From the NCBI GenBank assembly GCA_964035545.1, contig OZ037767.1:1368680-1432679 (forward strand): a DNA stretch of 64,000 nucleotides, written 5' to 3'. The stretch is from Bugula neritina (taxonomy: Eukaryota > Bryozoa > Gymnolaemata > Cheilostomatida > Bugulidae). Made by a program: the position numbers and the translations under genes. The first letter of the stretch is position 1. Each line of letters starts with the position of its first letter. The notes under the pieces were generated by a model. It searched no databases. It had not been told where the DNA came from and saw only the letters and a list, made by a program, of their open reading frames with translations. This document shows, in pieces, positions 36,724 through 64,000 of this stretch.

Positions 36724-39700
36724 ATGTCTGGAGAAATGGGAAAATGTGCTAAACTCTCAGACTATTTTTCTGAAGACCAAATTAAAGGGATGGGCAGATA
36801 TGAAAGAACACGGAATGAAAATCTCATTCGGAATTACAACTATATGAAGTCTATAGGTGAACCTTGTACTGCTTTACCGAGTAATAAAATATTTCCATTG
36901 CTTGTTATAGAAAATATAGTTGCTAAAATAAATTCTGTTATTTCCTATATTGAGTTGCATACAAGTATTCATAACTTTTATAAGTTTTAAAAATGTCACC
37001 AGTTTCTTTCATATTTAGGACTGGGTACTATCAAACCTCCTTTTCCAAAGAAGAAAGAAATTCTAAAGCAGCCTCTGGCTGAGAGAAAGTCATGGGGTTC
37101 CTTGGAGAAAGATGGAGAGGCGGCTGCTAACACCCGTCCAGTTCGAGGTATGTTGTTTGGTCCATTTTTATCTGGAATTTATGTGATTTTAATTAAAGCT
37201 ATGTGGATGTAGCCAGTTATTTTCTAGGTCAAAGTATTCAGATTTTTGCACATATTTAACACACACGCGCGCACACACAGTTGCGTGTTGTAAACTTCTG
37301 TTCTTTATACATAACACCTTCAAAATATAATATGTAGTACTTTCAGTATCCAAAAACTATATTAGATGTGTTTTTTTGAACCTCTCTTCAATTGCAGTGA
37401 TAATTAAGCTCTTTATATAAGTTTATTTTATTAAAAGCAATATTCAAACAACACAATTTTTTCATGAATTAATAGCTGAATATTTTTTCTGTTTCAATTT
37501 AAGATTATGAGAGATTCTTAATAAATGTACGCTATCTGTGTTCCTATTGTTTACTCAACTAATGATTGCTCTGAACAAATCTTTCACCTGCAGAAAGGAA
37601 GACGGTAAAAAGATTTCAGCCTCCTGCACCAAAGTTGCAAGTGGAAAAAACCACCAAGTGTGATGCTAAGGTATAGCAATTCTATTATATTCTGTTTACC
37701 CAATATACTTCAAATTTTACTTTCAGATTCACTTCAAACTATTTGTCTTTTGATCCACACTTTATGCTTCTATATATATTAAAAAGCAATAATGATATAT
37801 CACAAAAGTGCTTTATATTGTATAGTCAGGCAGGTTTGTAATACACCTGCAGTTTGACGAGTCATTTAACAGTCAAATGATGGACTCTGAATGAATTAAC
37901 CTACTGATGTACACATCAGTTCTGATTCAAGTTTGTCTAAAATATTAAATTGTTTGCCCAATTTAGAAAAAAATATTACAGACTCAACTAATTTTCAACA
38001 TTCATAAGTTTAAAGGATCTTATTACAGAATGCAGATGCTGACACTAATGGGCAATTAGACAGCAGTTTTGAATCTGAAGATTTGGAGTGGTCAACGCAG
38101 AGTTCCTCTTCTGAAGACTCTGATGATGACTACAATGAGGAGAATATTCCAGTAAAGAAGAGAAGAATTCTGAAACCAAAAGGTAGTATGAGAGAATAAC
38201 TATACGTAGATAATCTCATGAATACGATATAAGCTATTTATTTTACTAGCTTGTAGAGTTGTGTAAATAATCATATATAGGAATTCACAAGGCAAAAGTT
38301 CATATTGCTTTTGTATTAGGATCAGGAGTTGTAGATTTATAATTTGTAAAAGAATGTTCAAACATTTGAAGTCTTCAATTATGAAGGAAAACTATCTATT
38401 TAACTCTTCTAAAGATTTGAATTGAGTGTTTTTGCTACTCAGCTGCTTCTATTGATACATCAAATTAACTTTCAGCCCATTCATCACGAGTTCTCTTCCG
38501 ACCTCTCAACAACACTAAAATGATAATATACAAAAAGAAGATACTACCCAGGAGGAAGTGTGTGTCGTCAGCCTTTAACTACAAAGAGCAGGATGTGGAG
38601 GATGACGACTCCTACATCTGTATGTATCACAGCACACTTTTCTTGTTATGGTGACGGAGTGTATTATAATGAGAGGAATAGATGGTATACAGTAACACCA
38701 GCTGTGGTCTCAGCTGAAGCACTGAGTGTTTTGGTTGAAGATAAACGCTGCATCTCTCACTTCTCTGTTATACTGATTTATATTTTAGATTGTGAAGAAT
38801 GTCAGCTGGAATATGTGGGTTGTTGTCCACTTCACACTTTAATACCCATACTTGACACTCCAGTATGTATTTCAGTTCTGTTATATGCTTTCTGGTATTA
38901 TTAAACTATTGCAATGTATGATTATGATATATTATGTACTTGGGACATGTGTATATATATGTTCTCGATATATGATTTCTCTGGTGAATACTTGGAATTG
39001 TGTGAATTTTTTTCTCAAATGTTAATTTATTTTTCTGTTATTTATTTCTTGAAATTATTATTGGCTGATTTTTGCATTGACACTTGGTGATAGCATTCAG
39101 CTAGTCATTTATAAGCATCAGTTATACAAAGGCTCTCATGATGTTTACAATATGGCTCTCAGGTGCCACTAGGGGAAGAAAACCGAGCTGAGAAAACTCT
39201 CCCAGCTGGTCTTTCCTTGTCAGCTTCAAAAATAAAGAACGCCGGACGAGGTGTTTGGACAGACCGAGTGATTCCAAAGTTCACCAGGTTTGGGCCGTAT
39301 GAGGGGGTGGAGAAGGTGTGCAGTGACGTGACCAAGGATGAGGTGTCGGGATACGGCTGGCTGGTCAGTGACTCACATCTCTGTGTTATATAACACTGAC
39401 TCCATGAAACCCTTACACTTAGCTGAGCTGTTTCTTAGTTTCAAGTTTGCACAACTCAAGTTTTGCTTGTTAAACCGATAAGATTCGAAAGCACATATTT
39501 TATATAGTTTAATGTTAAGGAATGCGGAAAGATTTAAGTATCCATTTTCTCCTTTCAGATTAACTACAAATTAGCTGGCTGTTCACAATGTCTTATGCAG
39601 TAATGTTTCTATGCAAATGACAGTTCTTTTGCAAACAGCTTTCTCTAAGCAGCCCAAACCATTCTCATTTTTTACAGCTGCCTAGACTAATACTTATTGC

Positions 39701-41331
39701 ACATGCTCAGTGCTAACTAATATAATTTGTTTCCTTAACTGTTACAGGTTGTGAGGGGCTCAGGCTCTTACTATATAGATGGTGAAGATACTCGAACTTC
39801 AAATTGGCTGCGTTACATCAACTGTGCCCGTACCAAGGTGGAACAGAACTTGGAGGCATATCAGTATCAGGGGAAGACTTACTATAAAACTCTCAGAGAG
39901 ATAACCATAGGTGAGAGTATAGTATAATTATACAGTATTAATACACAGTCAGTTCTCTGTAGTTCACACACTTAGCTGGTGGTTCTGTTGTTGCAGGACA
40001 TGAACTGCTGGTTTGGTACGGAGATGATTACGCCGCTGACCTTGGCATTGATAAAGAGAACTATGCTACAGCTGCCTGTCCTCTAATTGGTTAGTTTTTG
40101 CTGCTCAAGTTGTCATATGTTATCTTGTAGCAATATGATAGTGTTGTATTAAAGTGAGATGTCAAAGTTTCCCCATCAGGTTTAGAGCAAGTTTTATAAT
40201 TTCAGTGAATGTTGTGTTGAAAGTTAGACAACTTTATGGGAACCCATGTTCACAGACTTTATTTTCTCCAGCAGCTCCCCAACAGCCAAACAGTTCGGCA
40301 GCAAACGCCTCAGTGACTTTCCATTACTGTGATGAGTGTAAAGCTCAGTTTGTGAACAAATCCTCTCTACTCAGGCATAAAAAGTGGCACAAGCAGAGCT
40401 CTTCTAGTAAGTCTACTAGCTTAAAGTTTCCTTTTGTCAAAGTTATGTTTAAAATTTTATTTCATTCCTAATAGCTGTATTTCTTGTTCATTTGCTGAAA
40501 GTTAATGCAACATGACTAATTAATTTAACTCCTAAAATATATCTTCCGAATGATATGCAAATAATATTCATCTTCTACCTCGTACTTAGACAAAAATTCT
40601 ATCCTGCATGGTTGTTGATTAATGTGCAGCCTTAGCAGTAAAGTATTACATGTTATTATGAATCCTCATAATAATTTGTTGCAGCTAAAGAAAATAGTTC
40701 TTCTCCAGTTGAACTAGAAGCTCCCAGAACTATAAAATGTGGAGACTGTGACTTTAGATGCAGTTATCCTGACGAACTCAAGAAACATGTGAAATGTCAC
40801 CGGAAAGGAAGTGAGAAGAAATACAAATGTACTCTGTGTGAGTATAGAAGTGCGTACAGCAGTCACCTACAGACACACTTCAGGACACACAGTGGAGAGA
40901 AGCCATACAAGTGTACTCAGTGTGAGTATAGATGTGCACAGAGCAGTGCTCTACAGACACACCTCAGAACACACAGTGGAGAGAAGCCATACAAGTGTAC
41001 TCTGTGTGAATATAGAAGTGCGTACAGCAGTCACCTACAGACACACTTCAGGACACACAGTGGAGAGAAGCCATACAAGTGTACTCAGTGTGAGTATAGA
41101 TGTGCACAGAGCAGTGCTCTACAGACACACCTCAGAACACACAGTGGAGAGAAGCCATACAAGTGTACTCTGTGTGAGTATAGATGTGCACAGGGCAGTC
41201 ACCTACAGACACACCTCAGGACACACAGTGGAGAGAAGCCATACAAGTGTACTCTGTGTGAGTATAGATGTGCATACAGCAGTACCCTACAGGATCACCT
41301 CAGGACACAACATGCTGGTGAGAAACCTTAG
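36724..41331 (+). CDS. PRDM9: PRDM9-like KRAB-PR/SET-zinc finger methyltransferase, complete, 649 aa
   Basis: In mammals PRDM9 methylates histone H3 (K4, K36) at sites its fingers bind and so places meiotic recombination hotspots; the role here is not known. Exons: 36724-36856, 37019-37147, 37594-37670, 38029-38182, 38476-38619, 38789-38862, 39163-39363, 39748-39910, 39997-40089, 40272-40406, 40685-41331, summing to 1950 nt. Seen: KRAB-related domain (1-45; LSDYFSEDQI...RNYNYMKSIG), acidic linker (SSSSEDSDDDYNEEN), a basic stretch in the SSXRD position, zinc knuckle (YCEECQ...CCPLH), PR/SET (239-390: RFGPYEG, YINCAR, ELLVWYGDDYA), a proximal finger (exon 10), then an exon 11 array of one divergent finger plus six 84-bp fingers. 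The methyltransferase motifs look intact. The KRAB-like box has EDQ where TRIM28-binding KRAB boxes have EEW, as expected for the ancestral PRDM9/SSX type. An upstream 5' UTR exon is likely. Confidence 0.93.
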
Positions 41332-43439
41332 TTGAGTGATCGCACATCACCTCTATAACATTGTGACATGTACTGTATAGTATAGTGCATTGCAGTGCAG
41401 CACTAGATGTTTATATCTCATTAGTTGCAATTGTATTGACTATGAGGTACACATTGTATAGGCTTTATATATCTTATATTTCTAGTTTTATGCATTCCTC
41501 TTATAATTTTGTGATACACTCTAATATATATGTGATAAACATGCATGTATTGTTATACCTTTATGCTAGTAGACTATTATATATATGCTATACAGAACTA
41601 CTTCTATATATTTTATACAAATTATCCTTGTATAGTCTACACCATTATAATACATTAGTTGATGGCAGTAGGTTCAGTAATATTATATGCCTAGTAATTT
41701 ACTGCCAATAACATATTTTTCTTGTGTTGATCACAATAGATGTGAATATTATATTTAATATATTATCATATTTGCATATTGTTACCCTATATTATATTAT
41801 TCTAAATTTCTTATAAATAATACTATGATTTATAGGTCACTATCATTCTGATTGGATCTGACCATCGCATATCATTTTGCATTTTCTTTATTTTAACTTG
41901 CAAAACTTTCCTATATATAAATCAAGCAATGTTTATATGCTTTCTTATCTTACTCATTTATGTTTACAAACTATTGAGCATGTGAAAGTTTAGAGTTGCA
42001 CATGCAATATCAATAAAATAATTTTGTCAAATGCAGCTGCTGTGCTCTATCTCTGTGTTGCAATAATTATCCCAATAGGTCGCAGTAGCTTAATGGATTT
42101 AGATTGCATTTTTAAATAGATCAATGTTGTACTGCTACCAGTGACTATCCTGCTTAATATATTTGTCTAGATTTTTATTTATCAAAACCTTTGGTAATTC
42201 AGGGCAAAAATAATGGCCAATAGTTTAATGATGTGATAAAGTAATTACCTAATAATTATGTTTGCCCAAAAATAATGCTGTGGCTAACTGGTTAAAGCTT
42301 TTGGCTGCAATGAAATTATATAACTTTGCTTGTGCTCCAACAACATTTTTCCACCTCTTTGGGATGTTACATCATTTATGCCTTTGTTTAATGATTGTGC
42401 TAAAATAGGCTTGTTATTGTTAGTATTTTGATAAGATTTATGAGAAAGCAACTCTCAACTTGAATAAAAACCCTAATATTATGCAATATTGTTTAGCAGC
42501 TATGACATGGTGGAGAAATCTGTTATATAGGGAGTTGTATAAGGGTTGCCTTTACAGTTTACACAGTTATAAACTAGGTAACAGTGATTAATTAATAAAG
42601 AAATATCACTTGCAACAAACAACTATACTCTAAGAAAGTCAAAGTAGATTATTACACCCTGTAGGTTTAATATAAAATATGTGAGCAGTTACAATTGACT
42701 ACCTTCGAATGCACTTGCCTATACAGTCAATCTTGTTTTGCTTGAGTAATGCTAGGAATTTAGAACTTACTTGAATTATGTTGCAGGTTTGTTAGATGCT
42801 TTGTTAAACTACTTCAAAATACTAACTATATATATAGAGACACTGATTCTAGCTAGTAGCTAAGAACTGAGTGTAACAATTCAACTAGCTTAGAACTTAA
42901 GAAATCTTCAACATAGAGAGCTGTGCACCCCGATTTATATTTCCCGACAATTTATGTTGACCCAATCAAAAACTAGTCTGAAAACGGCTAGCCAATAGCA
43001 TGTATAAGATTATAATACACAAAGCCACGCCTACAAGCAAAAAGTTACTACATCTTCAACTGACAAGCAAGTGCTTGATCTGCTAAGCATGAGTCATACT
43101 GTGAGTCAACAGGTGGTTCTTAAATTCTTCCTCAGCAGCTGAACTTACTGATTGAGAGACAACCATAATGGCTAAAATCTAATTAAAAAATTCTAAATAA
43201 GAGTAGGCTACCTTATAAAGAACAAAAATTCTAGTACAACACCTCCATTCTGTTAGAACAAGCTGTTAGCTCAAACAGCAGAGCATTTTAACTTGTAATA
43301 GAAAACTTTATATTTTGGCTTCTCCCATTTATTTAATATTATCCAGTCTTTTGTTTGTAATGCACAGGCATACCAGTGTGGCTTTATTCAGTTCTTAAAC
43401 AAACCTCCATGAATATAACAAGAAATAGTTGAACAGAAT
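41332..43439. other. 3' UTR of the PRDM9-like gene and intergenic DNA
   Basis: The first 220 bp match the 3' flanks of the downstream paralogues, and AATAAA at 42012-42017 is a likely polyadenylation signal. At 42950-43040 there are two CCAAT motifs and a ccacgcc box resembling the paralogue promoters, but no downstream exon was found. Confidence 0.4.
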
Positions 43440-43915
43440 CTGTTAACTGTTTTCCTTAGAATCTGGTAAATAGCTAGGCAGCTTCTGGTTGGTGTGTGAA
43501 ATAATGATCATACTGTGAAGTAGAGAGGGCCACTGTGTAGTTTATTGAATATTAACAAAAGAGGGTAGAACTGAGGGTGAACTGCTCAATATTTCAGTCA
43601 AAAATATATTATTAATTATTAACGCTATATATTATGGGTATAATTTCATACAGTCGGTTCACGATGTACATTACATATGCTAAACATAATCATACAAAAT
43701 CATTATGAAATATTCAACGCAGTTTGAACTAAGTATTAAATACTAAACAATGCTGCAAAATGTAATCATTAAATATGGGAGACTTGGCTAATTCAATCAA
43801 TATAAAACACTACAACAAATATTACCTAATGCATTGCCATGATCAACATGGCACTGTTTAAATTTGTTAACCTATATCTACTACCATAGCCTAAATCTCT
43901 TAAACCAAGTTAGGT

Positions 43916-44361
43916 TTAGCTTGTGGTCTCATCTGAGTCGTACTGTTTGCGGAAACAATCTTCAACAGGAAAGAAATCCCAGCATCTGTTATTATACATT
44001 TCCCAGACGTATGTTTCCTGGCCTGTGTACTCCGTATCCGGTTTTTTTTATCAAATGCATCAAAAAGAACCTAAAAAGTTACCAATAAAATGTTAAAAAT
44101 TCCATAAATGCATATGGAGTGCTAACTATAGCAATAACATTCCCACAACGTAGAAAACAGTGGTGTGTGGTAGCAAAATGTTTACCATAACTAAACCAGA
44201 TTACGCAATAATAATAATTAAAATAAATCATCTTATTCCAATACCGAAAGAGTAAAATAAAGATATGGAAAAAAGTAGTTTCTTACATGTAGTTTGCAAA
44301 GTTGTGTTCTTTCGTAACATGCTTTTGAAACCCGTGTGGATGTTCGTCAAAATAGGCAATC
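43916..44361 (-). pseudogene. RYR: Ryanodine receptor C-terminal fragment, copy 1 (frameshifted)
   Basis: Two minus-strand exons, 44361-44287 and 44070-43916, joined in phase, encode the tail of the ER calcium-release channel: PHGFQKHVTKEHNFANYM, then [37 protein letters not shown] and a TAA. Both His of the C-terminal zinc site (H...EH, five apart) are kept. One extra base in the A run of exon b (43916-44070) breaks the frame after about eight codons. No upstream receptor exons lie nearby, so this is a captured 3' fragment. An assembly error in the homopolymer is possible. Confidence 0.88.
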
Positions 44362-45514: not shown

Positions 45515-48500
45515 ATGTCTGGAGAAATAGGAAGATGTGTTGATCTCTCGGACTATTTTTCTGAAGACCAAATTAAAGCGATGGGCAGATATGAAAAAAC
45601 ACGAAATGAAAATCTCATTAGGAATTACAACTATATGAAGTCTATAGGTAAATCTAAATATTCTGCATTGCTTGTTATAAAACATATATAATTGTTAATA
45701 TGCATTATGTTAATTCCTGCTACCCTAACAGAACAAATCGGAGATGGGCGAGAAAGTATACATCATGCTATTTCTTACATTGAGTTGCCTGCAAGCATTT
45801 ATAACTCAACAGATATCATTGATTTGACATTGCGGTAAGATACAATGTCAGTTGATTTTTTAAAAATGTCACTTGCTGAATTTATATTTAGGACTGGATA
45901 CTATTAAACCTCCATTTCCAAAGAAAGAAGTTCTAAAGCAACCTTTAGCTGAGAGAAACTCATGTGGTTCCATAGAGAAAGGTGGAGAGGCGGCTGTTAA
46001 CACCAAGTGTGATACTAAGGTATAGCAATTCTATTATTTTGTTTACTCAATATACTTCAAATTTTACTTTCTAACTATTTGGCTTTTTGATCCACACTTC
46101 ATGCTTCTATATATAATTCAAAAGCCATGTAGTGTCCTTGATGATAAATAGTAAAATTTCATGAACTTGGTTTTATTTAGTTTGCTTACTGACACTCTGC
46201 TGCCAATTTGTTCACAGTTGTTATAATTTCTCATTTAGCAATTTAGCATTTACTGACATTGCCACACTGCCTTTGTGTTTTCACAGATTTCAACAGTAAA
46301 TCGCCCATCTTTATTGTATGTTTTAGCACTTGTTTGTCACTTTTTTTATCTTCAGGACCATTTTAGTATCACTAGGTGCATTGCAAGTTTTATTCTGCAC
46401 TGACTGCACTCAAAAATTATGACTAAGAAATGAGTGCATTAGCTTTACCATAAGACACAAACAGATAATCACGGGCTTTCCATGTACCGATCTCAGATCG
46501 ATCTCAGATTGATCTCAGATTGATCTCAGATTGATCTCAGATCGATCTCAGATCGATCTCAGATCGATCTCAGATCGATCTCGCTGAGATCGATCTGAAA
46601 AATGTGCTCAGATCGATCGTTTTTCCATGAGAGTGTCAGATCGATCTAGCGAAGTTGCCTCCTCTTAAGTGAAGGATACTTTAAAAGTATAATTTGTTCA
46701 CCTATTTGGGTGATTAAAGCTACTACTGTTGAAAACAAGATGGTCGTAGTCTAAAATTTAATCCCAACTATAAACTGTACGCAGCAAAGCTTTCAGTGTA
46801 TGGTAATTTGGCCAATTTAAAATAATTAATTTTAATTTTTCAGCTTGACAGCTTATATAAAATTAATGGCTGTCTTGCAGATTATTAATAAACTTACCGG
46901 GCCGTTGGGCTTAAAATTACAAAGAAAATAGCTAATGAAACTAAATTTTAATAGTCATTTAAATTCAATTTAAATTATCCCGTTTTTTTTACCTTCTGCT
47001 GCATATAATTGAGTTTTCTTAATCATAGTACTGAAAGTATAAGTTTTGGCATCTGAAAAGGTGGCTATCATAATTATTTAATACTTTGCTTAGTAATTAT
47101 CCATAAGTTATCATTTTTATTAGCAGACAACATTGTAGCGAGCAGTCTTTTTCTACTTCTCAGATCGATCTGGCGTCTTTCCATGGTCTTATTGACATGA
47201 GATCGATCTGAGTTCGAGCTCCACAGACTGACCAGCTCAGATCGATCTGAGATCGGTCCATGGAAAGCCGGTGAATATAAATATACGCACTTATAGCCAG
47301 GACATTATGGTATAAGAACCCTAAAGGTTCCATTCTCATCTACTTTCCATTCTCATCTACTCTCACATAATATCAGCTGTTATTTTCACAAAACGCACAG
47401 TATAAAATATTTCTTTCCTTATAACTTTGCTAATCTATATTATTACTTTGAATATTTAAATAATTATAAAACAAGCAATTTATCAAATTATCTTATGTAC
47501 TTATCTGTGTTTAATTTGCTCTTATTCCGTCATATTTTAATCTTGTAAAAAATTTGTAGTTTCACAGGGTAAACAGTGTGAATAAATAAACTACCTACAC
47601 TAAAACACACACTAAAACTTTTATATCAACTTAGGAGGGCAGTTACAAGCTATATTAAAATAATTTCGGAAGATCTGATATGCACCATAAATATCACTTA
47701 ATCAATTGACTCTAATGGATTCTTGCATATATGAACGTATCAGTTCTGCTTAACCTTTGCTTCAAATGCTAAATTCTCTGCTTAACTTTGAAAACCTTTA
47801 CTGGAATAATTTTCCACATAATTCATAAAATCACAGTTACAAGTTTGTCATTACAGAATGCAGATGCTGACACTAATGGGCAATTAGACAGCAGTTCTGA
47901 CTCAGAAGCTCTGGACTGGTTAGAGAACTGTTACTCTTCTGAAGACTCTGATGATGACTACAATGAGGAGAATATTCCAGTAAAGAAGAGAAGAATTCTG
48001 AAACCAAAAGGTAGTATGAGAGAATAAACTATATATATTGCTATACTTGTGAATACTATATGAGCTATTTAGTTTACTTGTAGAGTTGTGTAAATAGTCT
48101 TATATAGGAATTCACAAGGCAAAGATCCCATGCATATACACAGTTGGCTAATGTTAAGCTACGTTTATACCTCTGCTGAAAAAAATACTGAGTTTTAGTT
48201 AATAACGCTTGTCCAGGTACCCCTTTATAGTCAAACTGAAATCAATGAAATCATATTTATGCCGGAACTCACTTTCTAAAAGTAAACTCTGACTCGCCTA
48301 ATGGCTATTTGATGCCCTTTATAAACGTCGTGAATTAGTGAAGTTGTCAACCTAAAAGTAATATTTGTGAAGGCGTAGGCGATATAATTATTACCATTCA
48401 AGTATGTCATCTTATAATCGCCAAAGTCATAACTAAATAACGATGTTTACAAGGAGTTGTTACTCCTTTTGAGTATTATTCTGAAATCGGCCGATTAAGT

Positions 48501-50163
48501 TATCACAGTACAAAAATTTTTACTAGTGGCATTTACAATGCAATGCAACTCGAAGAACTTTCAACCCAGCCAAATTGAATTTCTGACTGAAAATCAGGAA
48601 AGTCTAAACGCAACTAAAACTTAATTGATGTTATGTTCTTGGGGGCCATCCATAAATTATGTCACGCTCAAGGGGGGGGAGGGGGTACCCTCATGTGTGA
48701 CAGTTTGTGACAGGGGGGAGGGGGGGAGGGTAGATATGTGTGATGTCACATTTTCAAATATTTTACCAAAACAAAATATTTCAGATATGTATTAATACTG
48801 AACATAAAACATCAAATACATGTATTTTTTGTCAATATAAAGCACAATAAAAACAGACTCCCTCCCCAGACCAATTAGCAAAAATCCCACTCCTTGACCT
48901 CTGCACCTGTGACCTATATAATGTAACCATTAGTGTGGTTCATGTCATGCCAGGAATATAGGTCACCAGTATAGTTACAGACTTATATTCACAATTGGAT
49001 CGAAGAAAACTAACTATTATGATGTTGAAAAACAGACTTCATGCTCTAGTGGAACTTTAATACCACTGAGGCAGTAAAAATAGCAGTTATAGGCCAGAAC
49101 TTATGACCTGCCTTATTAAATCAAGCATGGTTTCAATAATGTTTATGATTTTCTTGTCATTGGATAATAATGATACACTGAATAAATTTGGGTTCTTAAA
49201 AAGTTGCATTCATAAATATTGAACTTTGTGCCTGTAATGATTACTAAACATAAACCATTCAATCAGTACTTTTTGTATGGAGTATTTAATCTTAAAAGGG
49301 CGTTTACATAATCTGTGTGACATCACATGGGGGGAGGGGGTCATATAAGCGTGACACTTTGTGACAAGGGGGGGAGGGGGGGTCAAAAAGTGCTGAATAA
49401 AGTGTGACATAATTTATGGATGGCCCCTTGCCATATTTGAGAGTTTATTAGCCTACACGACTGTGTGAAAGCTGCAATTTTTGTTTATTTGCTAAAAGTT
49501 AATGCAAGTTGACTAGTTATTTAGAGTGTGTTAAACTGATAATACATCTTCCAAGTGATATGTGAATATGTATTTTCTAGCACATTTTGGGACAAAAAAA
49601 TTATCCTGGTTATTACTTTGTGTTCAGCCTTCTCAGTAAAGTATTACATATTATTACATGAATCCTCATAATAATTTGTTGCAGCTGAAAAAAATAGTTC
49701 TTCCCCAGTTGAACTAGAAGCTCCCAGAACTATAAAATGTGGAGACTGTGACTTTAGATGCAGTTATCCTGACGAACTCAAGAAACATGTGAAATGTCAC
49801 CAGAAAGGAAGTGAAAAGAAATACAAATGTACTCGGTGTGAATATAGAAGTGCAGACCGCAGTAACTTACAGAGACACCTCAGGACACACAGTTTGGAGA
49901 AGCCATACAAATGTCCTCTGTGTGAATATGGAAGTGCACAGAGCAGTCACCTACAAGCACACCTCAGGACACACAGTGGGGAGAAGCCATACAAATGTAC
50001 TCTGTGTGAATATGGAAGTGCATACAGCAGTCACCTGCAGAGGCACCTCAGGACACACAGTGGGGAGAAGCCATACAAGTGTACTCTGTGTGAGTATAAA
50101 AGTACACAGAGCTGTCACCTACAGGCACACCTCAGAAGACGTCATCCTGGTGAGAAACCTTAG
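45515..50163 (+). CDS. KRAB-related C2H2 zinc-finger protein A (no PR/SET), 297 aa
   Basis: Exons: 45515-45647 (UTR part from 45472), 45892-46019, 47857-48010, 49685-50163, summing to 894 nt. Each exon aligns with a PRDM9-like exon: KRAB-related, fused exons 2 and 3, acidic exon 4, finger exon 11. Exons 5-10 (zinc knuckle, SET, proximal finger) are absent. The acidic exon ends in phase 1 and the finger exon accepts phase 1, so splicing is in frame. Likely a nuclear DNA-binding protein. After the conserved first finger (YPDELKK helix) come four fingers with helices DRSNLQR, QSSHLQA, YSSHLQR and QSCHLQA, ending RRRHPGEKP. The KRAB-related box again lacks the EEW core. Introns 2 and 3 hold one TIR element each. 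Transcription is not proven, but all four exons are open with intact splice sites. Confidence 0.85.
46470..47273. mobile_element. TIR element (804 bp) with 11-bp palindrome array
   Basis: Ends match as inverted repeats (cacgggctttccatg against the complement of catggaaagccggtg). It is flanked by a 3-bp duplication AAT (46467-46469, 47274-47276), and the other units have the empty site agataatata. The left end at 46493-46583 is eight to nine units of gatctcagatc/t. Agatcgatct is a perfect palindrome repeated every 11 bp and recurs at the right end. No transposase. Confidence 0.88.
48642..49427. mobile_element. TIR element (786 bp), polymorphic between units
   Basis: Terminal inverted repeats begin ggggccatccataaattatg and continue tcac. 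Target duplication TTG at 48639-48641 and 49428-49430. Units 3 and 4 keep the uninterrupted site ttcttgccatatt, so the insertion is younger than the unit duplication. G-rich subterminal tracts; no transposase. Confidence 0.93.
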
Positions 50164-52507: not shown

Positions 52508-55500
52508 ATGTCTGGAGAAATAGGAAAATGTGCTACACTCTCGGACTATTTTTCTGAAGACCAAATTAAAGCGATGGGCAGATGTGAAAAAACACGAAAT
52601 GAAAATCTCATTCGGAATTACAACTATATGAAGTCTATAGGTAAATCTAAATATTCTGCATTGCTTGTTATAAAACATATATAATTGTTAATATGCATTA
52701 TGTTATTTCCTGCTACCCTAACGGAACAAATCGGAGATGGGTGAGAAAGTATACATCATGCTATTTCTTACATTGAGTTGTCTGCAAGCATTTATAACTC
52801 AACAGATATCATTAATTCGACATTGAGGTAAGATACAATGTCAGTTGATCTTTTAAAAATGTCACTTGCTGAATTTATATTTAGGACTGGATACTATTAA
52901 ACCTCCATTTCCAAAGAAAGAAGTTCTAAAGCAACCTTTAGCTGAGAGAAACTCATGTGGTTCCATAGAGAAAGGTGGAGAGGCAGCTGTTAACACCACC
53001 AAGTGTGATACTAAGGTATAGCAATTCTATTATTTTGTTTACTCAATATACTTCAAATTTTACTTTCTAACTATTTGGCTTTTTGATCCACACTTCATGC
53101 TTCTATATATTCAAAAGATATGTAGTGTCCTTGATGATGTAATGTTTGTATCTGTTTACTAAAGCTATGTTTATATTATCCCACAACTTATACCTGCTAG
53201 CAGCCTTATGAAATGTTATAGCTATACAATTATGCTGTCAAAGTAATTATGTTGTGGTTTTCAAAGTGCTATGTAACTGTTGTGACATACTGTTTGTTTA
53301 TCAAGTGGGAGTTAGCTTTGAGATTGGAGACAATAAAGTGTAGTGACAGTGAGAAAATTGGTAGTAATTTATTGCAGTAATTATCTATACAACACAACAG
53401 ATGATAGATAGTAAAATTTCATAAACTTGGCTTTATTTAGTTTGCTTACTAACACTCTGCTGCCAATTTGTTCATAGCTGTTATAATTTCTCATTTAGCA
53501 ATTTAGCATTTACTGACATTGCCACACTGTGTTTGTGTTTTCACAGATTTCAACAGTAAATCGCCCATCTTTATTGTATGTTTTAGCACTTGTTTGTCAC
53601 TTTTTTACCTTCAGGACCTTTTTAGTATCACTAGATGCATTGCAAGTTTTATTCTGCACTGACTGCACTCAAAAATCATGACTAAGAAATGAGTGCATTA
53701 GCTTTACCATAAGACATGAACAGATAATATACCACTTAGCCAGGACATTATAGTATAAGAACCCTCAAGGTTCCATTCTCATCTACTCTCACATAATATC
53801 AGCTGTTATTTTCACAAAACGCACAGTATAAAATATTTCTTTCCTTATAACTTTGCTAATCTATACTATTACTTTGAATATTTTAATAATTATAAAACAA
53901 GCAATTTATCAAATTATCTTATGTACTTTTCTGTGTTTAATTTGCTCTTATTCCGTCATATTTTAATCTTGTAAAAAAGTTGTAGTTTCACAGTGTAAAC
54001 AGTGTGAATAAATAAACTACCTACACTAAAACACACACTAAAACTTTTATATCAACTTAGGAGGGCAGTTACAAGCTATATTAAAATAATTTCGGAAGAT
54101 CTGATATGCACCATAAATATCACTTAATCAATTGACTCTAATGGATTCTTGCATATATAAACTTATCAGTTCTGCTTAACTTTTGCTTCAAATGCTAAAT
54201 TCTTTGCTTAACTTTGAAAAACCTTTACTGGAATAATTTTCGACGTGATTCATAAAATCACAGTTACAAGTTTGTCATTACAGAATGCAGATGCTGACAC
54301 TAATGGGCAATTAGACAGCAGTTTTGAATCTGAAGCTCTGGATTGGTTAGAGAAATGTTACTCTTCTGATGACTCTGGTGATGACTACAATGAGGAGAAT
54401 ATTCCAGCAAAGAAGAGAATTCTGAAACCAAAAGGTAGTATGAAAGAATAACTATACATTGCTATACTTGTGAATACGATGTGTGCTGTTTAGTTTACTT
54501 GTAGAATTGTGTAAATAGCCTTATATAGGAATTCACAAGGCAAAGATCCCATGCATATACACAGTTGGCTAATGTTGAGTTACGTTTATACCTCTGCTGA
54601 AAAAAATACTGAGTTTTAGTTAATAGCGCTTGTCCAGGTACCCTTTCATAGTCAAACTGAAATCATTGAAATCATATTTATGCCGAAACTTACTTTCTAA
54701 AAGTAAACTCTGACTCGCCTAATGGCCATTTGATGCCCTCTATAAACGTCGTGAATTAGTGAAATTGCCAGCATAAAAGTGATATTTGTGAAGGCGTAGG
54801 CGATATAATTATTACCATATAAGTATGTCATCTTATAATCGCCAAAGTCATAACTAAATAACGATGTTTACAAGGAGTTGTTACTCCTTCTGAGTATTAT
54901 TCTGAAATCGGCCGATTAAGTTATCACAGTACAAAAATTTTTACTAGTGGCTTTTACAATGCAACACAACTCGAAGAACTTTCCACCCAGCCAAATTGAA
55001 TTTCGAACTGAAAATCGTGAAAGTCTAAACGCAACTAAAACTTAATTGATGTTATGTTCTTACCATATTTGACAGTTTATTAGCCTACACGACTGTGTGA
55101 AAGCTGCAATTTTTGTTTATTTGCTGAAAGTTAATACAACTTGACTAATTATTTAGAGTTTGTTAATCTGATAATACATCTTCCAAGTGATATGTGAATA
55201 TGTATTTTCTAGCACATTTTGGGACAAAAAAACTATCCTGGTTATTACATACAAGTGTACTCAGTGTGAATATAGAAGTGCTTGTTATAAAATATTGCTT
55301 GTTATAAAACGTATATAATTTTTAATATGCATTATGTTATTTCCTGCTACCCTAACAGAACAAATTGGAGATGGATGAGAAAGTATACATCATGCTATTT
55401 CTTACATTGAGTTGCCTGCAAGCATTTATAACTCAACAGATATCATTAATTCGACATTGAGGTAAGATACAATGTCAGTTGATTTTTTAAAAATGTCACT

Positions 55501-58500
55501 TGCTGAATTTATATTTAGGACTGGATACTATTAAACCTCCATTTCCAAAGAAAGAAGTTTTAAAGCAACCTTTAGCTGAGAGAAACTCATGTGGTTCCAT
55601 AGAGAAAGGTGGAGAGGCGGCTGTTAACACCACCAAGTGTGATACTAAGGTATAGCAATTATATTATTTTGTTTACTCAATATACTTCAAATTTTACTTT
55701 CTAACTATTTGGCTCTTTGATCCACACTTCATGCTTCTATATATTCAAAAAATATGTAGTGTCCTTGATGATGTAATGTTTGTATCTGTTTACTAAAGCT
55801 ATGTTTATATTATCCCACAACTTATACCTGCTAGTAGCCTTATATTATGAAATGTTATAGCTATACAATTATGCTGTCAAAGTAATTATGTTGTGGTTTT
55901 CAAAGTGCTATGTAACTGTTGTGACATACTGTTTGTTTATCAAGTGGGAGTTAGCTTTGAGATTTGAGACAAAAAAGTGTAGTGACAGTGAGAAAGTTGG
56001 TAGTAATTTATTGCAGTAATTATCTATACAACACAACAGATGATAGATAGTAAAATTTCATAAACTTGGCTTTATTTAGTTTGCTTACTGACACTCTGCT
56101 GCCAATTTGTTCACAGCTGTTATAATTTCTCATTTAGCAATTTAGCATTTACTGACATTGCCACACTGTGTTTGTGTTTTCACAGATTTCAACAGTAAAT
56201 CGCCCATCTTTATTGTATGTTTTAGCACTTGTTTGTCACTTTTTTATCTTCAGGACCATTTTAGTATCACTAGGTGCATTGCAAGTTTTATTCTGCACTG
56301 ACTGCACTCAAAAATTATGACTAAGAAATGAGTGCATTAGCTTTACCATAAGACACAAACAGATAATATACCACTTAGCCAGGACATTATGGTATAAGAA
56401 CCCTCAAGGTTCCATTCTCATCTACTTTCCATTCTCATCTACTCTCACATAATATCAGCTGTTATTTTCACAAAACGCACAGTATAAAATATTTCTTTCC
56501 TTATAACTTTGCTAATCTATATTATTACTTTGAATATTTAAATAATTATAAAACAAGCAATTTATCAAATTATCTCATGTACTTTTCTGTGTTTAATTTG
56601 CTCTTATTCCGTCATATTTTAATCTTGTAAAACATTTGTAGTTTCACAGTGTAAACAGTGTGAATAAATAAACTACCTACACTAAAACACACACTAAAAT
56701 TTTGTATCAACTTAGGAGGGCAGTTACAAGCTATATTAAAATAATTTCGGAAGATCTAATATGCACCATAAATATCACTTAATCAATTGACTCTAATGGA
56801 TTCTTGCATATATAAACTTATCAGTTCTGCTTAACTTTTGCTTCAAATGCTAAATTCTTTGCTTAACTTTGAAAAACCTTTGCTCGAATAATTTTCGACG
56901 TGATTCATAAAATCACAGTTACAAGTTTTTCATTACAGAATGCAGATGCTGACACTAATGGGCAATTAGACAGCAGTTTTGAATCTGAAGCTCTGGATTG
57001 GTTAGAGAACTGTTACTCTTCTGAAGACTCTGATGATGACTACAATGAGGAGAATATTCCAGTAAAGAAGAGAATTCTGAAACCAAAAGGTAGTATGAGA
57101 GAATAACTATACATTGCTATACTTGTGAATACTATATGAGCTATTTAGTTTACTTGTAGAGTTGTGTAAATAGTCATATATAGGAATTCACAAGGCAAAG
57201 ATCCCATGCATATACACAGTTGGCTAATGTTGAGTTACGTTTATACCTCTGCTGAAAAAAATACTGAGTTTCAGTTAATAGCGCTTGTCCAGGTACCCCT
57301 TTATAGTCAAACTGAAATCGTTGAAATCATATTTATGCCGAAACTTACTTTCTAAAAATAAACTCTGACTCGCCTAATGGCCATTTGATGCCCTTTATAA
57401 ACGTCGTGAATTAGTGAAATTGCCAGCATAAAAGTAATATTTGTGAAGGCGTAGGCGATATAATTCTTACCATATAAGTATGTCATCTTATAATCGCCAA
57501 AGTCATAACTAAATAACAATGTTTACAAGGAGTTGTTACTCTTTTTGAGTATTATTCTGAAATCGGCCGATTAAGTTATCACAGTACAAAAATTTTTACT
57601 AGTGGCTTTTACAATGCAACACAACTCGAAGAACTTTCAACCCAGCCAAATTGAATTTCGAACTGAAAATCGTGAAAGTCTAAACGCAACTAAAACTTAA
57701 TTGATGTTATGTTCTTGCCATATTTGAGAGTTTATTAGCCTACACGACTGTGTGAAAGCTGCAATTTTTGTTTATTTGCTGAAAGTCAATACAACTTGAC
57801 TAATTATTTAGAGTTTGTTAATCTGATAATACATTTTCCAAGTGATATGTGAATATGTATTTTCTAGCACATTTTGGGACAAAAAAATTATCCTGGTTAT
57901 TACTTTGTGTTCAGCCTTTTCAGTAAAGTATTACATATTATTACATGAATCCTCATAATAATTTGTTGCAGCTGAAGAAAATAGTTCTTCCCCAGTTGAA
58001 CTAGAAGCTCCCAGAACTATAAAATGTGGAGACTGTGACTTTAGATGCGGTTATCCTGACGAACTCAAGAAACATATGAAATGTCACCGGAAAGGAAGTG
58101 AGAAGAAATACAAATGTACTCGGTGTGAGTATAGAAGTGCAGACCGCAGTAACTTACAGAGACACCTCAGGACACACAGTTTGGAGAAGCCATACAAGTG
58201 TACTCAGTGCGAGTATAGATGTACAACCAGTAGTACCCTACAGAGACACCTCAGGACACACAGTGGGGAGAAGCCATACAAATGTACTCTGTGTGAATAT
58301 GGAAGTGCATACAGCAGTCACCTGCAGAGGCACCTCAGGACACACAGTGGGGAGAAGCCATACAAGTGTACTCTGTGTGAGTATAAAAGTGCACAGAGCA
58401 GTCACCTACAGGCACACCTCAGAACACACAGTGGAGAGAAGCCATACAAGTGTACTCTGTGTGAATATAGAAGTTCATACAGCAGTGACCTACAGAAACA

Positions 58501-58534
58501 CCTCAGAAGACGTCATCCTGGTGAGAAACCTTAG
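52508..58534 (+). CDS. Chimeric KRAB-related zinc-finger protein B/C, about 419 aa
   Basis: Exons available: KRAB-related 52508-52640 (UTR part from 52465), linker 52885-53015, acidic 54284-54434, then from a second unit linker 55519-55649, acidic 56939-57089, and fingers 57972-58534. The first unit lost its finger exon and the second its promoter and KRAB exon, fused at 55246-55282. Phases still match throughout, so one transcript could carry duplicated linker-acidic pairs (1260 nt in all). Splicing could equally skip one pair. Fingers after the conserved first: helices DRSNLQR, TSSTLQR, YSSHLQR, QSSHLQA, YSSDLQK, ending RRRHPGEKP. No PR/SET exons. No stop codons in any exon. Expression unproven. 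Confidence 0.75.
53139..53405. mobile_element. About 270-bp insertion, unit 2 intron
   Basis: Relative to the units at 46 kb and 61 kb, which read straight from gtccttgat to aaatagtaaaatttc, this intron has about 270 extra bases bounded by GATGAT (53133-53138, 53400-53405). The boundary duplication suggests a short transposon insertion. No terminal inverted repeat recognised. Confidence 0.55.
55246..55282 (+). other. Recombination scar: finger-array remnant joined to intron 1
   Basis: Upstream of 55246 the sequence is the intron before a finger exon. Then about 35 bases of one finger appear (acaagtgtactcagtgtgaa, reading YKCTQCEYRS), and from 55282 the sequence is KRAB-exon intron 1 (ttgttataaaa). 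The acceptor and start of the finger exon are missing. Confidence 0.88.
55773..56044. mobile_element. About 270-bp insertion, unit 3 intron
   Basis: Same insertion as at 53139 with the same GATGAT borders, so it was present before these two units duplicated. Confidence 0.55.
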
Positions 58535-59340
58535 TTGAGTGATAACCTCTCACCTCTATAACATTGTGACATGTACTGTATAGTATAGTGCATTGCAGCA
58601 CTAGATGTTTATATCTCATCAGTTGCAATTGTATAATTATTGGCTATGAGGTACACATTGTACAGGCTTTATATATCTAGTTTTATGCATTCATCTTATA
58701 ATTTTGTGATATACTCTAATATGTGATTAACATGCATGTATTGTTATACCTTTACGCTAGTAGATAATGGGCTAGTACACCGTTATATATCATAATATAT
58801 TATAATATAATATATGTGACAAGAGATACTTGGACAGAATTTGTTGTTAACTGTTTTCCTTAGAATCTGGTAAATAGCTAGGCAGCTTCTGATTGGTGTG
58901 TGGAATAATGATCATAAGGTGAAGTAGAGAGGGCCACTGTGTAGTTTATTGAATATTAACAAAAGAGGGTAGAACTGAGGGTGAACTGCTCAATATTTTA
59001 GTCAAAAATATATTATTCATTTACGCTATTTATTATGGGTATAATTTCATACAGTCGGTTCACGATATACATTACATATGCTAAACATAATCATACAAAA
59101 TCATTATGAAATATTCAATGCAGTTTGAACTAAGTATTAAATACTAAACAATGCTGCAAAATGTAATCATTAAATATGGGAGACTTGGCTAATTCAATCA
59201 ATATAAAACACTACAAAAAATATTACCTAATGCATTGCCATGATCAACATGGCACTGTTTAAATTTGTTAACCTATGTTGACTACCATAGCCTAAATCTC
59301 TTAAACCAAGTTAGGTTTAGCTTGTGGTCTCATCTAAGTC

Positions 59341-59765
59341 TTACTGTTTCCGGAAACAATCGCCAACAGGAAAGAAATCCCAGCATCTGTTATTATACAT
59401 TTCCCAAACGTATGTTTCCTGGCCTGTGTACTCCGTATCCAGTTCATTTATCAAATGCATCAAAAAGAACCTAAAAAGTTACCAATAAAATGTTAAAAAT
59501 TCCATAAATATATGCATATGGAGTGCTAACTATAGCAATAACATTCCCACAACGTAGAAAACAGTGGTGTGTGGTAGCAAAATGTTTACCATAACTAAAC
59601 CAGATTACGCAATAATAATAATTAAAATAAATCATCTTATTCCAATACTGAAAGAGTAAAATAAGGATATGAAAAAAAGTAGTTTCTTACATGTAGTTTG
59701 CAAAGTTGTGTTCTTTCATAATATGCTTTTGAAACCCCTGTGGATGTTCGTCAAAATAGGCAAAC
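59341..59765 (-). pseudogene. RYR: Ryanodine receptor C-terminal fragment, copy 3 (early stop)
   Basis: Exons 59765-59691 and 59470 downwards. Both zinc-site His are kept (GFQKHIMKEHN) and [15 protein letters not shown] is in frame. A TAA at 59341-59343 follows CFRKQ, eight codons earlier than in the other copies; the ancestral stop position is 59317-59319. Confidence 0.87.
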
Positions 59766-60879: not shown

Positions 60880-63800
60880 ATGTCTGGAGAAATAAGAAAA
60901 TGTGCTACACTCTCGGACTATTTTTCTGAAGATCAAATTGAAGCGATGGGCAGATGTGAAAAAACAAGAAAAGAAAATCTCATTCGGAATTACAACTATA
61001 TGAAGTCTATAGGTAAATCTAAATATTCTGCATTGCTTGTTATAAAACATATATAATTGTTAATATGCATTATGTTATTTCCTGCTACCCTAACAGAACA
61101 AATTGGAGATGGATGAGAAAGTATACATCATGCTATTTCTTACATTGAGCTGCATGCAAGCATTTATAACTCAACATTGATTTAACATTGCGGTAAGATA
61201 CAATGTCAGTTGATTTTTTAAAAATGTCACTTGCTGAATTTATATTTAGGGCTGGATACTATTAAACCTCCATTTACAAAGAAAGAAGTTCTAAAGCAAC
61301 CTTTAGCTGAGAGAAACTCATGTGGTTCCATAGAGAAAGGTGGAGAGGCGGCTGTTAACACCACCAAGTGTGATACTAAGGTATAGCAATTCTATTCTTT
61401 TGTTTACTCAATATACCTCAAATTTTACTTTCCAACTATTTGGCTTTTTGATCCACACTTCATGCTTCTATATATTCAAAAGCTATGTAGTGTCCTTGAT
61501 AATAAATAGTAAAATTTCATAAACTTGGTTTTATTTAGTTTGCTTACTGACACTCTGCTGCCAATTTGTTCACAGCTGTTATAATTTCTCATTTAGCAAT
61601 TTAGCATATACTGACATTGCCACACTGTGTTTGTGTTTTCACAGATTTCAACAGTGAATCGCCCATCTTTATTGTATGTTTTAGCACTTGTTTGTCACTT
61701 TTTTATCTTCAGGACCATTTTAGTATCACTAGGTGCATTGCAAGTTTTATTCTGCACTGACTGCACTCAAAAGTCATGATTAAGAAATGAGTGCATTAGC
61801 TTTACCATAAGACACAAACAGATAATATACCACTTAGCCAGGACATTATAGTATAAGAACCCTCAAGGTTCCATTCTCATCTACTCTCACATAATATCAG
61901 TTATTTTCACAAAACGCACAGTATAAAATATTTCTTTTCCTATAACTTTGCTAATCTATACTATTACTTTGAATATTTTAATAATTATAAAACAAGCAAT
62001 TTATCAAATTATCTTATGTACTTTTCTGTGTTTAATTTGCTCTTATTCTGTCATATTTTAATCTTCTTGTAAAAAAAATTGTAGAACTTCACTGTGTAAA
62101 CGGTGTGAATAAATAGACTGCCTACACTAAAACACACAGCCGTATGAAACTTTCATATCAACTTAGGAGGGCAGCTACAATAATTTCGAAAGATCTGATA
62201 TGCACCATGCATAACTATCACTTAATCGATGGACTCTAATGGATTCTTGCATATATAAACGTATCAGTTCTGCTTAACTTTTGCTTCAAATGCTAAATTC
62301 TTTGCCTAACTTTGAAAAACCTCTACTCAAATGATTTTCCACATGATTCATAAAAGCACAGTTACAAGTTTGTCATTACAGAATGCAGATGCTGACACTA
62401 ATGGGAAATTAGACAGCAGTTTTGAATCTGAAGCTCTGGATTGGTTAGAGAACTGTTACTCTTCTGGAGACTCTGATGATGAATACAACGAGGAGAATAT
62501 TCCAGTAAATAAGAGAATTCTGAAACCAAAAGGTAGTATGAGAGAATAACTATACATTGCTATACTTGTGAATACTATATGAGCTATTTAGTTTACTTGT
62601 AGAGTTGTGTAAATAGTCATATATAGGAATTCACAAGGCAAAGATCCCATGCATATACACAGTTGGCTAATGTTAAGTTACGTTTATACCTCTGCTGAAA
62701 AAAATACTGAGTTTCAGTTAATAGCGCTTGTCCAGGTACCCTTTTATAGTCAAACTGAAATCGTTGAAATCATATTTATGCCGAAACTTACTTTCTAAAA
62801 GTAAACTCTGACTCGCCTAATGGCCATTTGATGCCCTTTATAGACGTCGTGAATTAGTGAAATTGTCAGCATAAAAGTGATATTTGTGAAGGCGTAGGCG
62901 ATATAATTATTACCATATAAGTATGTCATCTTATAATCGCCAAAGTCATAACTAAATAACGATGTTTACAAGGAGTTGTTACTCCTTTTGAGTATTATTC
63001 TGAAATCGGCCGATTAAGTTATCACAGTACAAAAATTTTTACTAGTGGCTTTTACAATGCAACGCAACTCGAAGAACTTTCAACCCAGCCAAATTGAATT
63101 TTGAACTGAAAATCGTGAAAGTCTAAACGCAACTAAAACTTAATTGATGTTATGTTCTTGCCATATTTGACAGTTTATTAGCCTACACGACTGTGTGAAA
63201 GCTGCAATTTTTGTTTATTTGCTAAAAGTTAATACAACTAGACTAATTATTTCGAGTTTGTTAATCTGATAATACATCTTCCAAGTGATATGTGAATATG
63301 TATTTTCTAGCACATTTTGGGACAAAAAAATTATCCTGGTTATTACTTTGTGTTCAGCCTTTTCAGTAAAGTATTACATATTATTACATGAATCCTCATA
63401 ATAATTTGTTGCAGCTGAAGAAAATAGTTCTTCCCCAGTTGAACTAGAAGCTCCCAGAACTATAAAATGTGGAGACTGTGACTTTAGATGCAGTTATCCT
63501 GACGAACTCAAGAAACATATGAAATGTCACCGGAAAGGAAGTGAGAAGAAATACAAGTGTACTCTGTGTGAGTATAGAAGTGCAGACCGCCGTAACCTAC
63601 AGACACACCTCAGGACACACAGTGGAGAGAAGCCATACAAGTGTACTCTGTGTGAGTATAGAAGTGCATACAGTGGTGCTCTACAGAGACACCTCAGGAC
63701 ACACAGTGGAGAGAAGCCATACAAGTGTACTCTGTGTGAGTATAGATGTACAACCAGTAGTACCCTACAGAACCACCTCGGGACACACAGTGGAGAGAAG

Positions 63801-64000
63801 CCATACAAGTGTACTCTGTGTGAGTATAGAAGTGCATACAGCAGTGCTCTACAGAGACACCTCAGGACACACAGTGGGAAGAAGCCGTACAAGTGTACTC
63901 TGTGTGAGTATAGATGTACAACCAATGGTAACCTACAGACACACCTCAGGACACACAGTGGAGAGAAGCCATACAAGTGTACTCTGTGTGAGTATAGATG
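60880..64000 (+). CDS. KRAB-related C2H2 zinc-finger protein D (no PR/SET), 3' end outside window
   Basis: Exons: 60880-61012 (UTR part from 60837), 61250-61380, 62382-62532, 63415 to beyond 64000. Same architecture and phases as protein A. KRAB-related box MSGEIRKCATLSDYFSEDQI. Fingers after the conserved first: helices DRRNLQT, YSGALQR, TSSTLQN, YSSALQR, TNGNLQT, then a cut sixth. One linker is GKKP instead of GEKP, and one finger reads LGTH. This is the longest array of the paralogues so far. No stop codon, and no PR/SET exons in the intron before the fingers. Confidence 0.85.

Follow-up and report, generated by a model that had tools for sequence, protein, structure and literature searches.

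Does the group of zinc-finger genes that lies beside a PRDM9-like gene, and that carries a KRAB-related exon but no PR/SET domain, descend from this very neighbor, and could it constitute a working gene family? We analyzed a window of 64,000 nucleotides, by which the whole stretch of DNA is meant, together with the genome around it. The explanation that we consider best as a whole, with a probability of roughly 0.7, is that a single SET-less founder arose here by tandem duplication and deletion and that its descendants would act as regulators.

The Parent Is a PRDM9-Like Gene

The putative parent gene at 36724-41331 (+) comprises 11 exons with canonical GT-AG sites and an open frame of 649 aa.

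36724..36856 (+), exon 1: KRAB-related (ancestral KRAB-A)
37019..37147 (+), exon 2: region following KRAB-A, plus linker
37594..37670 (+), exon 3: linker, of which the SET-less genes A, B, and C retain little
38029..38182 (+), exon 4: acidic exon, ending in phase 1
38476..38619 (+), exon 5: basic stretch where SSXRD would lie, missing from A, B, and C
38789-38862, 39163-39363, 39748-39910, 39997-40089 (+), exons 6-9: zinc knuckle and PR/SET, missing from A, B, and C
40272..40406 (+), exon 10: proximal zinc finger, missing from A, B, and C
40685..41331 (+), exon 11: one finger and a six-finger array, then stop

The PR/SET domain matched the solved PRDM9 structure (4c1q) with an E value of 2.3e-44, compared to 1.1e-27 for the best non-PRDM9 chain, PRDM11. 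A Pfam scan matched it to PF21549 (128.9 bits), in agreement with a PR/SET domain of the PRDM9 type, and the equivalents of PRDM9 residues Y276, Y341, and Y357 are retained by eye. The same scan yielded no SSXRD match (PF09514) in the parent, where exon 5 is similar to SSXRD by eye. The finger array is homogenized, with a two-finger repeat pattern, and the top protein match to the gene is from a bryozoan. The parent is alike to PRDM9 (Meisetz), which positions meiotic recombination in mammals, in its KRAB-related exon, its PR/SET domain, and a terminal finger exon with diversified contacts. These shared features support its assignment, made from sequence, to the PRDM9-like genes of the full-length animal form, as the initial annotation had proposed. 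By eye, an acceptor-like ag upstream of exon 1 suggests an additional 5' UTR exon.

The Pfam KRAB model (PF01352) matched neither the parent nor gene A, the two proteins scanned. A profile of the ancestral KRAB (aKRAB) was generated from 10 of the 13 PF01352-bearing matches of the protein search, whereby P0033, P0037, and P0046 were left out because the region-cutting motif did not match them. This profile gave 33.9-39.9 bits for the parent, A, B, C, and the Bugula protein P0092, with 33.9 bits for the parent against 8.8 bits as the highest score among 4000 shuffled versions of the parent and A. By eye, the aligned stretch is without the MLE motif that marks the modern, TRIM28-binding type of KRAB-A (motif as defined in PMC8835667, in excerpt). 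Thus, a KRAB-related domain of the ancestral PRDM9 type is supported at the sequence level.

Three SET-Less Genes Follow the Parent

Downstream of the parent, three gene models retain the KRAB-related, acidic, and finger exons, with open frames and canonical splice sites.

45515..50163 (+), SET-less gene A: exons 45515-45647, 45892-46019 (fused 2+3), 47857-48010, 49685-50163
52508..58534 (+), SET-less gene B: exons 52508-52640, 52885-53015, 54284-54434, 55519-55649, 56939-57089, 57972-58534
55249..55281 (+), short finger-exon remnant where the internal duplicates of B meet
60880..64565 (+), SET-less gene C: exons 60880-61012, 61250-61380, 62382-62532, 63415-64565

Gene A encodes 297 aa with 1+4 fingers. 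Gene B encodes 419 aa with 1+5 fingers (325 aa without the first duplicate), its second and third exons being duplicated internally and in frame; the unit at 52.5 kb is indeed a SET-less paralogue, as had been annotated, yet it forms one gene across 52508-58534 with two exons duplicated inside. Gene C encodes 521 aa with 1+12 fingers, and its last exon extends 565 bp beyond the window end. All three thus combine a KRAB-type domain with a C2H2 array in the absence of SET, and no PR/SET domain lies between their acidic and finger exons. Parent exons 5-10 are missing, which amounts to 144+74+201+163+93+135 = 810 nt from phase 1 to phase 1. The exon models bear out the initial annotation in that six parent exons within 38476-40406 are absent and that the acidic exon joins the finger exon in phase 1, leaving the frames open. 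Its description of the lost block as zinc knuckle, PR/SET, and proximal finger was right but incomplete, since exon 5 at the SSXRD-like place is gone as well. The shared intron sequence extends 114 bp past the acidic exon (to 38296), within the annotated 110-130 bp, and resumes at 40473, where the annotation had it near 40483.

The Copies Probably Derive From One Local Founder

Over the shared N-terminal part, A, B, and C are 84-88% identical to the local parent, from which they are set apart by common fixed differences and by a common in-frame fusion of exons 2 and 3. The identity to the parent and the shared introns argue against descent from the vertebrate KZFP lineage and agree with the annotated local origin. 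Two further elements recur within the cluster:

57234..57690 (+), dispersed repeat of 457 bp, sitting where exons were lost
48160-48614, 54579-55035, 62677-63133, further copies of the dispersed repeat
43419..44355 (-), duplicated ryanodine receptor 3' end, also at ~50457-51391 and 58819-59759
64865-65800, the ryanodine receptor gene's own 3' end, beyond the window

The dispersed repeat occupies the lost-exon site in A, B, and C, and no match to it was found in the parent. Since it and the exon 2/3 fusion are common to all three genes, A, B, and C very probably go back to one founder. As the cause of the exon 5-10 deletion the repeat was rejected: between it and the ends of parent homology lie unplaced stretches of about 34 bp on one side and 66 bp on the other, and by eye there is a possible TAA target duplication, both of which make it resemble an independent insertion. 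Every tandem unit furthermore carries the tail of the neighboring ryanodine receptor gene.

From these features we propose, very probably correctly, the following route. A full-length PRDM9-like gene adjoining the ryanodine receptor gene would have been duplicated in tandem, and exons 5-10 would have been deleted from one copy, which thereby parted with the SSXRD-like stretch, the zinc knuckle, PR/SET, and the proximal finger while keeping the frame. A separate deletion at an ACC microhomology would have fused exons 2 and 3, likewise in frame and either before or after the loss of exons 5-10. The founder and the receptor 3' tail would then have been amplified into three genes. The putative "family" is young and consists of three genes, whose functional role is putative.

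In Bugula neritina, the gene model P0084 connects the acidic exon to the finger exon in the same manner; thus, the SET loss may be older or may have occurred twice. P0084 and P0092 have residues in common that the genes of the window lack, so that a shared SET-less origin is no more than a possibility. The claim of a separate local event is therefore well supported with respect to vertebrate KZFPs, but not as an event confined to this species.

Genome-Wide Searches

The 216-Mb genome was searched for further units and for displaced SET exons, whereby the match counts for the KRAB-related exon and PR/SET are lower bounds. The KRAB-related exon matched at no fewer than 4 places, all at this locus (4/4 candidates scored). 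The PR/SET query yielded at least 10 matches (10/10 scored), four of which, at 87-96% identity, are the parent's own exons, and the remaining six show 27-50% identity. A second PRDM9-type PR/SET was not found genome-wide, by which the possibility that SET exons of A, B, and C reside elsewhere was rejected; the initial annotation, which had named such exons as evidence against itself, stands on this point and in calling the copies SET-less. Nor did the KRAB-related exon or the acidic and finger-exon starts as queries detect further units genome-wide, so that additional units elsewhere were likewise rejected, and the count that the annotation had left to an extended contig closes with C at 64565. 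The search with the acidic and finger-exon starts did return one isolated piece of a finger exon, which lies on a different chromosome. With parent residues 1-200 as a query, 0/290 candidates reached E 10 or better, and a genome search with the Pfam KRAB model gave zero matches, as did its control, so that this zero carries no weight. The genome contains a gene that combines zf-CW with PWWP and in this resembles ZCWPW1/2, the readers of the PRDM9 marks; another zf-CW match, on C4, was rejected as such a reader, being a MORC-like protein by eye.

The tandem repeats of the cluster are ~91-98% identical, and repeats of this kind assemble poorly. It is nevertheless highly improbable that misassembly removed the SET exons or that a single locus is represented by several haplotypes: the locus lies within one 32.4-Mb contig, the copies are told apart by insertions particular to A, by the duplication inside B, and by how many fingers they have, and the PRDM9-type PR/SET was found once in the genome.

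Finger Diversification and Selection

The DNA-contacting finger positions -1, 3, and 6 vary in amino acid more than random column triples, with P = 0.0003 for A+B+C (19 fingers), 0.0003 for C alone (12), 0.004 for A+B (7), and 0.005 for the parent (6). With variable columns only, the values are 0.0012, 0.0018, 0.108, and 0.059, respectively. The pre-array coding sequence differs from the parent by 6.6-8.5%, compared to 17-19% for flanking non-coding sequence. Among the copies, coding and non-coding change amount to 0.030 vs 0.037 (A-B), 0.048 vs 0.049 (A-C), and 0.026 vs 0.040 (B-C), and dN/dS is 0.44-0.59, from few changes. A test for neutrality on the copy branches gave P = 0.08 (A), 0.035 (B), and 0.48 (C), nominal values from three tests; neutrality was thus rejected for neither A nor C, and B is below the neutral expectation. 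With P0092 as the outgroup, 11 changes are parent-only, against 8 in A, 5 in B, and 13 in C, so that the copies are not clearly faster, though C exceeds the parent. These data suggest that selection may act on the predicted genes A, B, and C.

It could also be that A, B, and C are young tandem duplicates of no lasting function, which are open only because they are recent. They differ by ~3.7-4.9% in non-coding sequence, with exons changing at a similar rate, and A and C depart from neutrality to no significant degree. That coding indels are in frame carries little weight, since few non-coding indels break multiples of three (2/5 for A-B, 5/11 for A-C). However, three genes are open across 297-521 codons, the contact positions are diversified, the copy branch is not clearly accelerated, and B deviates at P = 0.035, and we regard this explanation as rather unlikely.

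Comparison With Known Systems and Proposed Working

In contrast to PRDM9 (Meisetz), A, B, and C lack the SSXRD-like, knuckle, PR/SET, and proximal finger exons. They resemble vertebrate KRAB-ZFPs, for which descent from PRDM9 through SET loss has been proposed (PMC4592553, in excerpt), in a KRAB-type N-terminus and a C2H2 array, no SET, and a tandem cluster, but differ by a local invertebrate origin, an ancestral rather than a modern KRAB-A, and a number of three genes. The coelacanth aKRAB ZNF genes, more than 200 in number and usually of a single exon, likewise combine aKRAB-A and fingers without SSXRD or SET (PMC8835667, in excerpt), whereas A, B, and C have four to six coding exons and keep the PRDM9 exon structure. 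SSX genes, thought to be PRDM9-derived, kept aKRAB and SSXRD without SET (PMC8835667, in excerpt); A, B, and C share the aKRAB without SET but kept the fingers and lost the SSXRD position. PRDM9 duplicates that lost domains also include PRDM9-beta of fish and further truncated paralogues, although PRDM9-beta lost KRAB and SSXRD and kept SET and fingers (PMC5519329, PMC11703093, both in excerpt), which is the opposite loss.

In our judgment, PRDM9 gave rise here, locally and by convergence, to KRAB-ZFP-like genes. No SET-less intermediate is known to survive beside its PRDM9 parent. Among the titles and abstract starts searched, a collection from which most subscription articles and preprints are absent, none dealt with invertebrate finger genes that derive from PRDM9 and lack SET. 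Here, parent and SET-less copies stand side by side with matching introns and with steps that can be ordered, and it becomes possible to test in an invertebrate the losses, the initial functional shift, and what aKRAB does without SET.

The products are predicted to bind DNA and to combine an ancestral KRAB with a variable finger array, while lacking a methyltransferase. Each array would select DNA motifs specific to it, and partners would be brought in by the KRAB-related domain, whereby the protein may regulate or silence its targets, which might be repeats. It would do so in the germ line and would not write H3K4/H3K36 methylation. Such a motif-selecting, partner-recruiting regulator or silencer is our leading guess, to be taken as tentative. 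Somewhat more doubtful is the wider idea that a bryozoan re-ran the birth of KRAB zinc-finger genes, with a working SET-less aKRAB-finger system that has private motifs, stands at a three-gene stage, uses a non-TRIM28 co-factor, and is possibly shared with Bugula.

Alternatively, the SET-less proteins might act on full-length PRDM9 through finger multimers or competition for sites, and thereby tune or limit recombination hotspots. Parent and copies have their N-terminal exons in common, their fingers are close relatives (mean DNA identity of 84-86%), PRDM9 has been reported to multimerize through its finger array (PMC6643046, PMC4569383, both in excerpt), and the ZCWPW1/2-like gene would fit this setting. 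We consider it unlikely, however: the helix residues differ, and the parent's finger order is repeated in no array of A, B, or C, so that shared long motifs are improbable.

The SET-Less Copies and Their Common Founder

The window corresponds to C3:1368680-1432679. The copies A (45515-50163), B (52508-58534) and C (60880-64565, ending beyond the window), which follow the PRDM9-like parent gene (36724-41331, plus strand), have uninterrupted reading frames and canonical splice sites, with predicted products of 297, 419 and 521 aa, respectively. As the initial annotation had claimed, all three are without parental exons 5-10, which together make up 810 nt with phase 1 at both sides. Homology to the parent stops 114 bp past the acidic exon and restarts at 40473. 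In the genome searched (216 Mb; the window's contig spans 32.4 Mb), the KRAB-related exon was found at no fewer than four places (4 of 4 candidates scored). A PR/SET query yielded at least 10 matches (10 of 10 scored), four of which are the parental stretches with 87-96% identity; the other six are only 27-50% identical.

In A, B and C, exons 2 and 3 have become fused at an ACC repeat, and the fusion has removed 24 codons in B and C and 25 in A. Since the lost stretch is retained in P0092, a Bugula neritina protein model, the fusion represents the derived state. At the site of the lost exons, all three carry a 457-bp repeat without a match in the parent. It has at least 41 matches in the genome (best 40 of 723 candidates scored), four of them within the units of A, B and C. 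The two ends of the 457-bp repeat are imperfect inverted copies of one another, which agree at 15 of the first 30 positions and, on visual inspection, at 11 of the first 13. Because fusion and repeat are common to A, B and C, the comparison shows descent from a single founder.

Copy B contains an internal duplication (52660-55248 versus 55294-57903, 96.7% identical), the junction of which is marked by a short finger-exon remnant. The phase order 1, 0, 1 is preserved across the duplicated exons, so that B can presumably read through both exon copies or skip one. The intron that precedes the finger exon of A holds an insert present only in this copy (48641-49427, about 790 bp), which has 24-bp matching inverted ends and resembles a DNA transposon.

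Tandem Growth With Ryanodine Receptor Tails

Sequence comparison identified duplicates of a ryanodine receptor 3' end at three positions:

43419-44355, minus strand, ryanodine receptor 3' end duplicate
50457-51391, minus strand, ryanodine receptor 3' end duplicate
58819-59759, minus strand, ryanodine receptor 3' end duplicate

The last 38 residues of the duplicated tail match the ryanodine receptor (phmmer, E 1.7e-13), and the receptor gene itself lies on the minus strand with its own 3' end at about 65 kb. Of four open frames of this gene that were scanned, two gave matches above the cut-off (Ion_trans in the first case, MIR in the second), a third had SPRY just under the cut-off, and the fourth had no match. 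Since the minus-strand fragments are receptor 3' ends, the repeat unit is, by sequence, one SET-less gene plus a receptor tail. Between the first tail and the other tails the difference is 5-8%, similar to that among the copies, versus 17-19% between parent and copies in flanking non-coding sequence; the expansion thus looks younger than the parent-copy split. The simplest model leaves the tail between parent and A unaccounted for; it would be explained if an initial copy had been lost or if conversion had taken place. Antisense or fusion transcripts from the minus-strand tails are possible.

The PRDM9-Like Parent and Its Bryozoan Relatives

The 11 exons of the parent yield an open product of 649 aa with canonical splice sites. 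Among solved structures, the top match of its PR/SET domain is PRDM9 (4c1q, E 2.3e-44) and the best non-PRDM9 match is PRDM11 (1.1e-27). In the alignment to solved PRDM9, inspected by eye, the parent has tyrosine at the equivalents of Y276, Y341 and Y357, placed by what we take to be the human PRDM9 numbering. PMC11703093 names these residues as catalytic. A Pfam scan of the parent reported PR/SET and fingers, and no match to KRAB or SSXRD. With an aKRAB profile for which the KRAB regions of ten PRDM9 matches were combined, the N-termini of the parent, A, B, C and P0092 scored 33.9-39.9 bits (best of 4000 shuffles, 8.8). Because these scores lie far above the shuffles, exon 1 is, as judged by the profile, an ancestral-type KRAB domain. 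Exon 5 occupies the SSXRD position of other PRDM9, with a likeness seen by eye only.

For the pre-array part of the parent, the best of 91 matches listed was P0001, a model of the bryozoan Watersipora subatra (53% identity, 58% of the query, E 1e-87). Residues 1-184 of A matched only P0092 and P0084, both from B. neritina, which are 73% (123/168 positions) and 80% (60/75) identical to the parent. By these identities the window probably comes from a bugulid-like bryozoan that is not B. neritina itself. In the public gene model P0084 the acidic exon is joined directly to the finger exon, which is the junction predicted for A, B and C. Since P0084 and P0092 share residues absent from the window genes, either the SET-less state is older than the species split and conversion followed, or there were two origins, or the P0084 model skips exons. 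A second PRDM9-like model of W. subatra, P0075, is by eye without parts of the PR/SET region, P0001 being fuller, which hints at further PRDM9 erosion in bryozoans.

Finger Arrays and Selection on the Copies

One conserved finger precedes each array of 6 (parent), 4 (A), 5 (B) or 12 (C) fingers. Contact positions -1, 3 and 6 account for 36% of the pairwise amino-acid diversity versus 11% expected (3/28 columns) in a set of 25 fingers; the terminal finger of A and that of B escaped the pattern and are not in this set. The contact-position test was strong for C and for A, B and C together, and weaker for the parent and for A and B together when variable columns only were used. Finger pairs are repeated in C, which points to array exchange.

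Some comparisons speak for selection on the copies. Outside the array, coding differences from the parent amount to 41/546 (A), 36/543 (B) and 46/543 (C), and flanking non-coding differences to 124/666, 118/665 and 115/665, a contrast that includes constraint on the parent itself. With P0092 as outgroup, the parent has 11 changes of its own, compared with 8 in A, 5 in B and 13 in C; with P0084, the parent versus copy changes are 7 v 4, 6 v 1 and 6 v 4. When the copies are compared with each other, every indel in the exons covered is 3 bp long, as are many non-coding indels. Exon rates close to non-coding rates among A, B and C count against selection, as does the neutral copy-branch test (P 0.08 for A, 0.035 for B, 0.48 for C), and exon similarity could also stem from gene conversion with the parent. 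We consider selection likely on B and no more than possible on A and C. That the copies are without lasting function, with which the exon rates would agree and likely selection on B would not, appears rather unlikely.

Possible Roles and Known Systems

The SET-less copies cannot write PRDM9 marks. We favour, at a probability of roughly 40%, that A, B and C would regulate specific targets through their aKRAB domain; this ranks before the absence of a lasting function, and a modulation of the parent, with which they share the KRAB-related exon but not PR/SET, comes last as the most doubtful. The zf-CW family has two genome matches, a MORC-like gene and a zf-CW/PWWP gene. In the latter (locus C6:12919143-12919247), zf-CW and PWWP exons lie within about 1 kb of each other (29.9 and 29.8 bits, both above the cut-off). 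ZCWPW1/2 have this zf-CW plus PWWP make-up and are readers of PRDM9 marks in vertebrates. The gene is probably ZCWPW1/2-like, and because of its presence the parent may direct recombination.

Full-length PRDM9 is reported to occur in cnidarians and sponges (PMC13186367), and for three species, a polychaete, a gastropod and a sea anemone, PRDM9 fingers are reported to evolve in concert (PMC2779102); the part of PMC11577847 consulted for coral PRDM9 mentions the mammalian gene alone. A descent of KRAB-ZFPs from PRDM9 via SET loss is a standing proposal (PMC4592553). Ancestral KRAB domains are grouped in PMC8835667 into PRDM9, SSX and coelacanth ZNF, to which the parent and A, B and C would be a further, invertebrate group. 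In contrast to A, B and C, fish PRDM9-beta is described with the opposite loss (PMC5519329, PMC11703093).

Other Observations

A finger-exon copy with its upstream intron lies at C4:23820881-23821021 (minus strand), a locus where no match to the KRAB-related or acidic exon was found. Its frame seems to run on into a protein-kinase-like stretch (29.4 bits, under the Pfam cut-off). As the adjoining sequence, inspected by eye only, resembles an integrase of the Polinton type, this exon may have been captured by a mobile element. Within the window, 31492-33116 comprises about 49 tandem copies (by arithmetic) of a 33-bp unit, with more than one open frame on each strand, and adjoins a stretch that by eye is leucine-rich-repeat-like.
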